In this document: positions 4,912 through 45,426 of the stretch, piece by piece
Layout: the number at the start of each line of letters is the position of its first letter
Numbering within the stretch: the stretch's first letter is position 1
IMG/VR virus record: IMGVR_UViG_3300012920_000071
Span: 1 to 45,877 of that record
DNA length: 45,877 nucleotides
From: a virus
Reading direction: 5' to 3' (one strand)
Made by a program: the position numbers and the translations under genes
Notes under the pieces: model-generated
Databases searched by the model: none
What the model saw: only the letters and a program-made list of their open reading frames with translations
Told to the model about the DNA's origin: nothing

Positions 4912-5630
4912 TCAAACCCCACCAGTGTTGGGGTGGTGGAGGTTTCCTCAACCGCAACCTCTGGCGTCACGTCCTGCACAACGTTAATCATGTGCGGGTT
5001 ATGAGCGGGCTGTCCAAGAATTTGGAGAACTTTGGCTACGCCAATCGCGTTAGGCTTAAGCCCCCCTGTGCTGGCGCCCCAGTACGCGACCACGTCCCCA
5101 ATCTTAGCGAAGTGATCCTTTAGGATAGGTGAGGTTGATGCCAATGGCAAAGCCATTTCGTACGTCTTGGCGCCATTCCCTAGCGTCACAGGCGTGAACT
5201 TGCCTGCTTCATCCAAACGCCCAATTCCCTTGGTGGGATTGAACGCCACAACCGCCATGGCGTAGTGTGAGCGGTCACCGCCCGCGTCCTTGATGGCTTG
5301 GAATAAGTTTTTTCCATCGGACGTTGCAAGCGGGGAAAGGCGCTTGTACTGCGTCTTGGTGTTTGTCTTTAGGGGAACTAGGTTCCCCCCTACGTTCTCG
5401 GTTGGGATGATCACGCGACCAACGTAACCGTCTGGGCGTGTGACCCAGTAGTAGCCCCTTTGGGGGTTGTAGCATTTGAGCGTCTTGAACATGGCATCAA
5501 GGACGCGTCCGACCTCATCGGACGTGAAGCCGATGTTTATCAGCTTGTGGTTTTTCGCTTTTGCGGAGGTGACCTTCGCGATTGCAGCCGTCAATGCGGC
5601 TGAGGGTATGGTTGTGTTGGTGAGTTGCAT
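4896..5630 (-). CDS. hypothetical protein, 244 aa, first gene of leftward operon
   Basis: I start at ATG 5630 (AGGAAG about 7 nt upstream), not at the farther in-frame ATG (5735), which would place the hairpin leader inside the protein. The product begins MQLTNTTIPSAALTAAIAKV and has a basic Lys-rich N-terminal half and a Val/Thr-rich end. No family recognised. It is the first gene of the leftward transcript and is bracketed by unusually structured RNA on both sides, which suggests a strongly expressed early transcript or one controlled after transcription. Confidence 0.75.
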   Translation of the reverse strand: MQLTNTTIPSAALTAAIAKVTSAKAKNHKLINIGFTSDEVGRVLDAMFKTLKCYNPQRGYYWVTRPDGYVGRVIIPTENVGGNLVPLKTNTKTQYKRLSPLATSDGKNLFQAIKDAGGDRSHYAMAVVAFNPTKGIGRLDEAGKFTPVTLGNGAKTYEMALPLASTSPILKDHFAKIGDVVAYWGASTGGLKPNAIGVAKVLQILGQPAHNPHMINVVQDVTPEVAVEETSTTPTLVGFELNLS

Positions 5631-43322: not shown

Positions 43323-43646
43323 GTGGACACCAACACAATTACTACCATGGAAGTTGAAATGATAAACAGGGACGGAGTTCCCTTTGGGAGAATCTACAAA
43401 AAAATCTTAACACTCAAATCACGGATTGGTGACATCAATAGGATTTGTGCAAACACGATCCTAGAGCATGGAAACAAATTTAATTGGGTGTGGCTATCCA
43501 ATTTGGAGACAGGTGGGATTCATTGCATGGATACCGCCGACCTCATCAAGCAACCATGTGATGATGATGGTTATCTTCTGGTCAAGTGCGATGACTTTAG
43601 GGTTATAGGCCCAGATGAGATACAGGAGCAGTTTGATGATTTCTGA
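43323..43646 (+). CDS. hypothetical protein, 107 or 99 aa
   Basis: Start uncertain: GTG 43323 lies 2 nt after the hairpin, ATG 43347 (MEVEMINRDGVPFG) is further in; neither has an SD. No family recognised; mixed polarity with a Cys pair (GGIHCMDTADLIKQPCDDDG). Ends inside the next gene. Confidence 0.55.
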   Translation: MDTNTITTMEVEMINRDGVPFGRIYKKILTLKSRIGDINRICANTILEHGNKFNWVWLSNLETGGIHCMDTADLIKQPCDDDGYLLVKCDDFRVIGPDEIQEQFDDF

Positions 43647-43941
43647 TCTATCAGAAGGACCAGAGTCCACTCCACCAAGACTGCTATTTCCTATAGTAAA
43701 TGCTATAATACATTCACATGATGAACCCATTTGGGAAGCAACTATACCTGTGTTTGCTAAATGGATAAAGAGTCATGTGGATGTTATATCAAGAGACAAG
43801 GATTGGAGTGTGGAGTCTATAATGGACGGAAAGTGTCCTGTTGAGTTAGAGGTTGAAAAAGATAATGGATTAACAATTGTTATATTTGTGGAAGGATGGG
43901 AGTACGCAAATCTAAGAACAATGATAAATATAGGAGAATGA
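43636..43941 (+). CDS. hypothetical protein, 101 aa
   Basis: ATG 43636 overlaps the previous gene by 11 nt; an upstream ATG (43615) exists. Starts MISDLSEGPESTPPRLLFPI. No known family; acidic C-terminal half. The stop is followed directly by the SD and start of the methyltransferase, so likely co-transcribed. Confidence 0.6.
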   Translation: MISDLSEGPESTPPRLLFPIVNAIIHSHDEPIWEATIPVFAKWIKSHVDVISRDKDWSVESIMDGKCPVELEVEKDNGLTIVIFVEGWEYANLRTMINIGE

Positions 43942-43942
43942 G

Positions 43943-45331
43943 ATGTGGATATTAGCGACAAAGAAATTACGTGCATTGGCTTGTTTACCGGAGGAGGAGC
44001 GCTCGAGCTCGGAGTTAGAAGAATTATCCCAAACCTGCGAATGCTCGCTTATGTGGAGATCGAAGCCTATGCGGTCACCCTCTTGGCTCAAAAAATTGAA
44101 AGGGGGGAGTTGGATGAAGCACCTATCTTCACTGATGTTACCCAATTCCCTGCAGAACTCTTTCGTGACAAAGTACACCTCGTCGTTGCCGGATATCCAT
44201 GCCAAGATTTCTCCACCGCAGGGAAAAGAGCAGGACTGGAGGGTAATCGCGGAAAGATGTGGGGATACACCAGGTCAGTTGTATCTAGACTTCGAGCCAG
44301 AGCCTTCTTTGGAGAAAATGTTGAAGGCCACGTGTCGCTTGGACTCGACACAGTCGTCAGCGATTTGGTTGAAGATGGTTTCATGGTTAAGGGAGGATTA
44401 TATTCGGCGTTCGAGGTTGGTGCGCCTCATCTTAGAAAGCGAATATTCACATTATCATTCCGAACAGACCCACACACAGGTGGATGGGAGCATGCAAGAA
44501 CAGGAAACCAAGGATGGCTTGACCTCGCAGACGCAGAGTTCCAAGCAATTACCACAGGAAGAGTGCAACTGGCCGACCCCTCAAGTATCAGACGGGAACG
44601 GAGCAGCGAATCCACTACGAGAGGATCATCGGAAGCAATTGAGAGATGTGGAGACGGGCTTGGGGGAGATGTGGCCAACACCAACAACAGCAGAGGGGGG
44701 GAAGATCAGTTGTCAGCCGAACTACGGACAGACGGGACTGAGCAATCATCCATCGATTGTGGGGGAGGTTACCAGACCCAAGGGAGAGAAGAGCCGAAGC
44801 TGGCCGACCCCAGTAGTGACGGATTGCTCAGACGAAGACCTGAAGACATGGGAGAAGAGGTGCGAGAAGCACGGAGAAATGATGCAGAGACCTCTCAGGA
44901 TTGCGGTTCAACAGGATATGCTAGAGGAAGCCATGAAGAGTGGCCAATTAGGTGGCCAGCAAGACCCGGAAACCGACAGCATGACTGGGAAGCCCCTAGA
45001 GTCTTGGGCAACCCCGAACACAATGGATCACCTGCCGCCGAGATCGGAGGAAGCCACAGAGAGGATGATGACGGGGGCAAGGAAGGGGAGATCAGCTCCA
45101 AGCAACCTTCGGGAGCAAGTAGACCCAAAGACGATGAAAGCATGGGCGACTCCAAGGACACTGGATGCGGACGGGCTGATGATGAATGTAAAGAAAAGGG
45201 GTCTACAGCCAGAGAACACACTTTGCGGTCAAGCAGCGAATCAAGTGAAGAGCAAGAAGCTCAATCCGTCATGGGTGGAGAGTCTGATGATGTTACCCGC
45301 GGGTTACACTCAAATAGAATCGACAGACTAA
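43943..45331 (+). CDS. overlapping second-frame protein with WPTP repeats, 462 aa
   Basis: Open for 462 codons in another frame over nearly all of the methyltransferase. The C-terminal half repeats WPTP/WATP (44570, 44672, 44801 and further at about 45008 and 45143) and ends KLNPSWVESLMMLPAGYTQI. I know this pattern (WPTP tracts ... LNPxWVExLMGxPxGWT) from stand-alone phage proteins, so this frame looks conserved rather than accidental. Each WPTP pairs with a LADP/VANT/LGNP unit of the methyltransferase frame. The true start is unknown; ATG 43943 with the same SD is only one option. The N-terminal third may be non-coding noise. Confidence 0.5.
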   Translation: MWILATKKLRALACLPEEERSSSELEELSQTCECSLMWRSKPMRSPSWLKKLKGGSWMKHLSSLMLPNSLQNSFVTKYTSSLPDIHAKISPPQGKEQDWRVIAERCGDTPGQLYLDFEPEPSLEKMLKATCRLDSTQSSAIWLKMVSWLREDYIRRSRLVRLILESEYSHYHSEQTHTQVDGSMQEQETKDGLTSQTQSSKQLPQEECNWPTPQVSDGNGAANPLREDHRKQLRDVETGLGEMWPTPTTAEGGKISCQPNYGQTGLSNHPSIVGEVTRPKGEKSRSWPTPVVTDCSDEDLKTWEKRCEKHGEMMQRPLRIAVQQDMLEEAMKSGQLGGQQDPETDSMTGKPLESWATPNTMDHLPPRSEEATERMMTGARKGRSAPSNLREQVDPKTMKAWATPRTLDADGLMMNVKKRGLQPENTLCGQAANQVKSKKLNPSWVESLMMLPAGYTQIESTD

Positions 45332-45426
45332 GAATGCTTGGAAATGGTGTGGTATGGCTTACTGCGGCAAAAGCCTTTAGCGAAATGCTTGACCAACATA
45401 GGTCAGACTGGGTTGACACAACCTAG
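43945..45426 (+). CDS. DNA (cytosine-5) methyltransferase
   Basis: GTG start 43945 after AGGAG. Motifs in order: I FTGGGALELG (about 14-23), IV GYPCQDFS (catalytic Cys86), VI ENV (124-126), VIII LRKRIF, then the C-terminal motif IX/X RMLGNGVVWLTAAKAF. It methylates cytosine, protecting phage DNA from host restriction, or marking DNA. Between motif VIII and X (about 180-440) the chain is a long hydrophilic insertion with repeats LADAEF, LADPSS, VANTNN, LADPSS, LGNPEH, MGDSKD. This insertion is where a second open frame overlaps it (see next feature). Confidence 0.9.
   Translation: MDISDKEITCIGLFTGGGALELGVRRIIPNLRMLAYVEIEAYAVTLLAQKIERGELDEAPIFTDVTQFPAELFRDKVHLVVAGYPCQDFSTAGKRAGLEGNRGKMWGYTRSVVSRLRARAFFGENVEGHVSLGLDTVVSDLVEDGFMVKGGLYSAFEVGAPHLRKRIFTLSFRTDPHTGGWEHARTGNQGWLDLADAEFQAITTGRVQLADPSSIRRERSSESTTRGSSEAIERCGDGLGGDVANTNNSRGGEDQLSAELRTDGTEQSSIDCGGGYQTQGREEPKLADPSSDGLLRRRPEDMGEEVREARRNDAETSQDCGSTGYARGSHEEWPIRWPARPGNRQHDWEAPRVLGNPEHNGSPAAEIGGSHREDDDGGKEGEISSKQPSGASRPKDDESMGDSKDTGCGRADDECKEKGSTAREHTLRSSSESSEEQEAQSVMGGESDDVTRGLHSNRIDRLRMLGNGVVWLTAAKAFSEMLDQHRSDWVDTT

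Follow-up and report, generated by a model that had tools for sequence, protein, structure and literature searches.

A C5 cytosine methyltransferase gene of a virus is overlapped along almost its full length, for 1.39 kb, by a second reading frame, and sequence comparisons give good support to dual coding over about this distance with selection on both frames. The DNA analysed (the window, 45,877 nucleotides) is a 45.9-kb virus record in which terminase, portal, head, exonuclease, annealing-protein and primase/helicase genes are present. Frame A specifies the methyltransferase, and frame B, which is the +1 frame relative to A, specifies a protein of the PHROG 1008 family. From sequence features, structural models and the analogy of known enzymes, we regard it as likely that the two products form a two-subunit C5 methyltransferase, in which A would be the catalytic subunit and B would supply target recognition and motif IX in trans. 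The features of the pair are listed below, the repeats being read directly from the sequence.

43932..43936, + strand: AGGAG, Shine-Dalgarno-like, 6 nt upstream of the ATG of B and 8 nt upstream of the GTG of A
43943..43947, + strand: ATGTG double start, with ATG as the start of B and GTG as the start of A; kept in the related locus L005
43943..45331, + strand: frame B, 462 aa, ATG start; PHROG 1008 family; proposed recognition/motif IX subunit
43945..45426, + strand: frame A, 493 aa, GTG start; C5 cytosine methyltransferase, putative catalytic subunit (PF00145, PHROG 363, AF2)
43945..44469, + strand: motifs I-VIII of A, residues 1-175; catalytic core with PCQ, ENV and the motif VIII arginines
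44570..44581, + strand: WPTP repeat 1 of B, reading LADP in A
44611..45297, + strand: A residues 223-451, predicted disordered linker replacing the recognition domain and motif IX; pLDDT below 50
44672..44683, + strand: WPTP repeat 2 of B, reading VANT in A
44801..44812, + strand: WPTP repeat 3 of B, reading LADP in A
45005..45016, + strand: WATP repeat 4 of B, reading LGNP in A
45143..45154, + strand: WATP repeat 5 of B
45260..45313, + strand: LNPSWVESLMMLPAGYTQ, motif-IX-like C-terminal end of B; 20.8 bits with a 20-residue profile built from relatives
45316..45399, + strand: motif X region of A, RLRMLGNGVV, and the next helix; a block with pLDDT 96

The second open reading frame of 462 codons that had been reported in the first-pass annotation is thus real. 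Dual coding had been put there at about 1 kb; the dual coding itself stands and its extent becomes about 1.39 kb.

Start sites and upstream genes

The pair is preceded by the primase/helicase gene and then by two small genes. These (43323-43941; 107 and 108 aa) overlap each other and gave no match in PHROG, and in L005 a 104-aa gene lies at the site of the second one.

The start of L005 is organized like that of the window, GGAGG preceding the same ATGTG. In the phage C75C1 the starts of A and B are separated by 7 nt, and in the IMG/VR relatives B mostly starts inside A. From these sequences, the start of B in the window and L005 is one that has moved to the shared ATGTG. A Shine-Dalgarno sequence was found before the first B-frame ATG in 53 of 77 relatives, against 22.6 expected under synonymous shuffling of A, and this excess points to independent initiation of B. 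In the proposed scheme, one ribosome-binding site with the overlapping ATG and GTG would serve to initiate both proteins.

Coding and selection in both frames

The openness of frame B was compared with chance in 5000 permutations of the synonymous codons of A, which leave the A protein and its codon usage unchanged. The longest open run in frame B was 461 codons, against a mean of 165 and a maximum of 427 in the permuted sequences; when the phage's own codon usage was applied, no run exceeded 283. The third frame of the window gene is ordinary, with 39 codons open. The second frame also stays open in relatives, a check that had been suggested at the outset: the B-frame runs of L005 (464 codons), the C75C1 phage (460) and the Paenibacillus larvae phage Jacopo (236) exceed those of all 5000 permutations, and the permutation p value was 0.01 or lower for 82 of 93 IMG/VR loci.

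As had been noticed at first, the LADP/VANT repeats of A and the WPTP/WATP repeats of B are paired, i.e. they are one DNA in two readings. Where the second half of A has tripeptides of the form [LVM]A[DNHY], B reads WPT 127 times; the codon usage of neighbouring genes predicts 11.0.

Codons of B start at the second base of A codons, and therefore each wobble change in A alters the middle base of a B codon. The reduced synonymous change that the first-pass annotation had asked for in the overlap was observed in the comparison of the window with L005. Counting only sites with an unchanged amino acid, 15 of 66 fourfold sites in A residues 1-178 differ (23%), against 124 of 185 in neighbouring genes (67%; Fisher p = 5e-10), while 5 of 7 differ in the part of A past the B stop, which is coded once. 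For third positions, the differing fraction is 0.41 within the methyltransferase, compared with 0.61-0.62 for two genes close to it. In A codons 421-480, close to the 3′ end, changes at A positions 1, 2 and 3 number 22, 6 and 13, a signature of frame B.

Among the IMG/VR relatives, fourfold differences amount to 60.4% upstream of the B start and 30.1% downstream of it, and the dual-coded part has the lower value in 95 of 99 relative pairs, or in 19 of 23 pairs without a common member (p = 6e-5). The contrast with neighbouring genes is the cleaner one, because the 5′ and later parts of a methyltransferase may differ in other constraints. Third-position rates are mixed in the few relative pairs that have control genes, since the single-coded 5′ part is included in that count.

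Profile searches led to a similar picture. With HMMs of the N-part and C-part of B built from the IMG/VR families, the window being left out, B of the window scores 51.2 and 63.0 bits, respectively, and the maxima over 200 synonymous rewrites of A are 47.3 and 19.6 bits. This result holds for most relatives in a comparison that left out L009 (PMG1). The weakest case is the N-part of B in L005, whose score is reached by 22 of 200 rewrites and so does not stand beyond them.

A frame of this kind could in principle be an untranslated shadow whose openness and motifs simply follow from A and base composition. Shadow frames are common in GC-rich DNA, and many relatives are GC-rich (the window gene has 52% GC). 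However, the permutation, fourfold-site and profile tests reject this explanation and the B-frame pattern persists in loci with less than 50% GC, making a shadow frame highly improbable.

Synonymous rewriting of B wrecks motifs I-VIII of A and introduces a mean of 15.4 stops into frame A, against 0 in the actual sequence. In this reverse test, the middle of A in the window showed no conservation beyond the level dictated by B. This part of A, open yet not conserved beyond B, seems to be held open only to reach motif X. Therefore, in the 3′ half of the gene it is A, not B, that looks overprinted.

Distribution of methyltransferase motifs between A and B

Frame A matches PF00145 with E 3e-26 (residues 9-177; profile 2-166 of 324) and PHROG 363 with E 7e-41. 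In the AF2 model the core of residues 1-175 is mostly of high confidence, with blocks up to pLDDT 96, and the top fold matches of the model are M.HhaI and M.HaeIII. The motif residues of motifs I-VIII are invariant in our alignment of relatives (alignment A5), as are R458, R461, L465, G466 and N467. The methyltransferase motifs at both ends of the gene are thereby confirmed as motifs I-VIII and motif X by PF00145, AF2 and the alignment.

The stretch of M.HhaI and M.HaeIII that is absent from A corresponds to the target-recognition domain and motif IX, i.e. the small domain (PMC3404938). A PF00145 domain with recognition region and motif IX in a single chain is not found in A. From sequence and model, A is without a recognition domain or motif IX, and about 230 residues at their place are predicted to be disordered. 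The region with LADP/VANT repeats had been regarded as a long insertion; the repeats are there, but the region sits at the place of the recognition domain and motif IX and so is not an insertion.

Frame B matches PHROG 1008 with E 7e-12 in two stretches, an N-part and a C-part, the second of which (44780-45328) has E 9e-6. The PHROG carries the label 'DNA methyltransferase', though the B family is without catalytic motifs. B of the window gave no match in Pfam or NCBIfam, a profile search with B against PDB returned nothing useful, and AF2 of a typical B (L082) alone gave a low-confidence model without a fold match.

We identify the end of B, LNPSWVESLMMLPAGYTQ, as motif-IX-like, judging from a short motif, its position directly before motif X and natural variants in which it shares the methyltransferase frame. 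In L066 a single frame holds the methyltransferase, this motif and motif X, giving a protein that matches PF00145 over 2-322 of 324. Gordonia phage Gudmit has the similar RLSAAFAEWMMMLPAGW, also in frame with GNGV. Motif IX of E. coli Dcm is LTPRECARLMGF, and the 20-residue profile of the B end scores Dcm at noise level only; a phmmer search of in-frame motif IX-X fragments against PDB gave no match. Because its C-terminal motif behaves like motif IX, we read B as the missing recognition half of the enzyme.

The middle of B has a median identity of 38%, against 80% for the N-terminus of A, in pairs whose A proteins are at least 75% identical. A fast-diverging B middle next to a conserved A core is the pattern expected of a specificity region. 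In the proposed enzyme, A would contribute SAM binding, motifs I-VIII, a long disordered linker and motif X. B would be a partner with an N-terminal part encoded over motifs I-VIII, a variable WPTP-repeat region acting as the target-recognition part, and motif IX. Once assembled, A and B would mark the phage DNA, presumably as protection from host restriction. Translation of B from its own ATG, binding of A and B, specificity supplied by B and the anti-restriction role are what we infer from these features.

The main mechanistic rival is a single chain made by programmed frameshifting, in which ribosomes would initiate in A and change to frame B downstream of motif VIII, A itself being a by-product or second form. 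The A core and the B C-part together do resemble one canonical methyltransferase, and motif IX is naturally joined in frame in L066, L017 and L243. Nevertheless, we consider frameshifting unlikely: in most families conservation of the B N-part exceeds what A accounts for, Shine-Dalgarno sequences lie at B starts, and A stays open as far as motif X, a motif that would be missing from a chain shifted once into B.

Relatives and known split or nested methyltransferases

An IMG/VR search with an exact DNA pattern for LNPxWVEWLMG[FY]P gave at least 120 loci. Among the matches listed, a methyltransferase N-terminus stands in the +1 relation at 107 of 121 sites; L066 has it in the motif frame, L079 in the third frame, and 12 sites run off the sequence. 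A similar pattern in bacterial genomes of many phyla gave the same +1 relation at 112 of 119 sites among the matches listed, with one in frame, one in the third frame and five cut by the extracted stretch. Over the matches listed in both scans, a methyltransferase is visible at 223 B-motif sites and has the offset frame at 219 of them. In the converse search, for the A-frame motif with all synonymous codons permitted, 113 of 117 methyltransferases among the matches listed carry the exact B motif, the rest being near matches or cut off. Both scans have part of their content in common and each selects for the motif IX region, so that the figures are proportions and not a census. In single-protein scans of IMG/VR, B of the window had no match, and A of the window or of L005 matched L005 only.

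The matches listed, with more than 200 related sites, show by their sequences that the nested arrangement is real, common and mostly mis-annotated. In public phage records (L002, L015), often just one of the two frames is annotated.

A match to a phage protein type known as a stand-alone gene had been put forward for B. We rejected this candidate: wherever the sequence suffices B is found with this methyltransferase, either in the +1 frame or in one of the few natural frame variants, and no complete stand-alone B occurs among the matches listed from IMG/VR and bacterial genomes. The related idea of an independent protein overprinting a methyltransferase is not supported either, since B accompanies the methyltransferase, has a motif-IX-like end, and overlaps a 3′ half in which A looks overprinted.

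Accessory roles are frequent among overprinted viral proteins. B could have an independent role outside methylation, such as regulation or anti-restriction, and merely occupy the same DNA, and its lack of a recognised domain and its poor model when folded alone would agree with this. Against it stand the absence of a complete B without methyltransferase among the matches listed, the joining of the B end to the methyltransferase in natural variants, and a domain missing from A that B would supply. We find such an unrelated function quite unlikely.

Several loci vary in frame arrangement. In L066 (105-1154, - strand) the methyltransferase, LNPDWVEWLMGYP and motif X share one frame, and the LPTP/FPTP part lies in the other. 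L287 has motifs IX and X in one frame apart from motifs I-VIII, and L243 shows a fusion of the motif with the methyltransferase core and no visible motif X; sequencing error could account for either. In L073 (motif at 4987) the methyltransferase N-terminus and WPTP/LNPTWVEWLMGYP are in one frame and motifs VIII and X in another, the frameshift after ENVPG being genuine or a sequencing error. L077 holds two tandem nested pairs in one contig, with B motifs at 809 and 1851; the second core is missing its 5′ part, and its A frame has LKALGRK in place of LGN near the end.

Lee, Kam and Shaw reportedly found in 1995 that the small polypeptide of M.EcoHK31I is encoded inside the large gene in a different frame, a layout like that of B in the +1 frame of A (43943-45331). 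In M.EcoHK31I, which recognizes YGGCCR, motifs I-VIII and X belong to the larger polypeptide and motif IX to the smaller one, and the recognition domain was predicted in the large subunit (PMC3404938). Similarly, A has motifs I-VIII and X, and motif IX is not in A, the motif-IX-like end being in B. Unlike the large subunit of M.EcoHK31I, A offers no more than a disordered linker at this place, the variable part being carried by B; the near-complete overlap, the 462-residue B with WPTP repeats and the ATGTG start also set the window pair apart, by description.

M.AquI is a two-subunit C5 methyltransferase whose recognition part and motif IX lie on a separate polypeptide (PMC3404938), as proposed here for B. 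However, motif X joins motif IX in the small subunit of M.AquI, whereas motif X is in A in the window, B ending at 45331 before GNGV in its frame. L287 looks closer to M.AquI than the window does.

Phage methylases can also contain an out-of-frame HNH endonuclease, which in ShiLan is an inserted mobile element (PMC11855218). The window gene resembles ShiLan in having a second protein out of frame inside a phage methylase gene, and B might by this known arrangement (PMC11855218) be a hidden homing endonuclease. We consider this extremely unlikely, as no endonuclease match was obtained for B of the window or of 60 relatives, and B covers the catalytic region rather than being an insert and is present family-wide.

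The same nested pair exists in Paenibacillus larvae phages (gp56 and gp57 in Jacopo) and Xanthomonas phage PhiXhv-28, annotated as overlapping 'DNA methyltransferase' CDSs, with a B that is shorter than that of the window and starts inside A. No description, function or dual-coding analysis of these nested phage pairs was found in the literature searched. The nested pair is already known from existing annotation, and its principle from M.EcoHK31I. The apparently new elements are the near-full overlap, the shared ATGTG start, the evidence that both frames are under selection, the almost invariable occurrence of B with this methyltransferase, and the interpretation of PHROG 1008 as a recognition subunit.

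On balance we favour reading the pair as mutual overprinting, with the catalytic and recognition parts of a single enzyme placed in different frames. The 5′ half would be mainly A with B on top of it, and the 3′ half mainly B, where A would remain open solely as a disordered linker towards motif X; B would be an exchangeable specificity subunit. The pair would belong to a large class of such C5 methyltransferases in phages and prophages across phyla, and in the lineage of the window the overlap would have been extended to full length, with ATGTG as a common start.

It is rare for 1.39 kb of DNA to be coding in two frames with selection shown on each. Should B be the recognition subunit, database entries for many phage methyltransferases describe a single protein where the enzyme consists of two, recoding of the annotated gene for expression could unknowingly abolish activity, and PHROG 1008 acquires a function. 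The A/B pair would then be a naturally occurring two-part methyltransferase with exchangeable parts, well suited to studies of the evolution of two interacting proteins on shared DNA.
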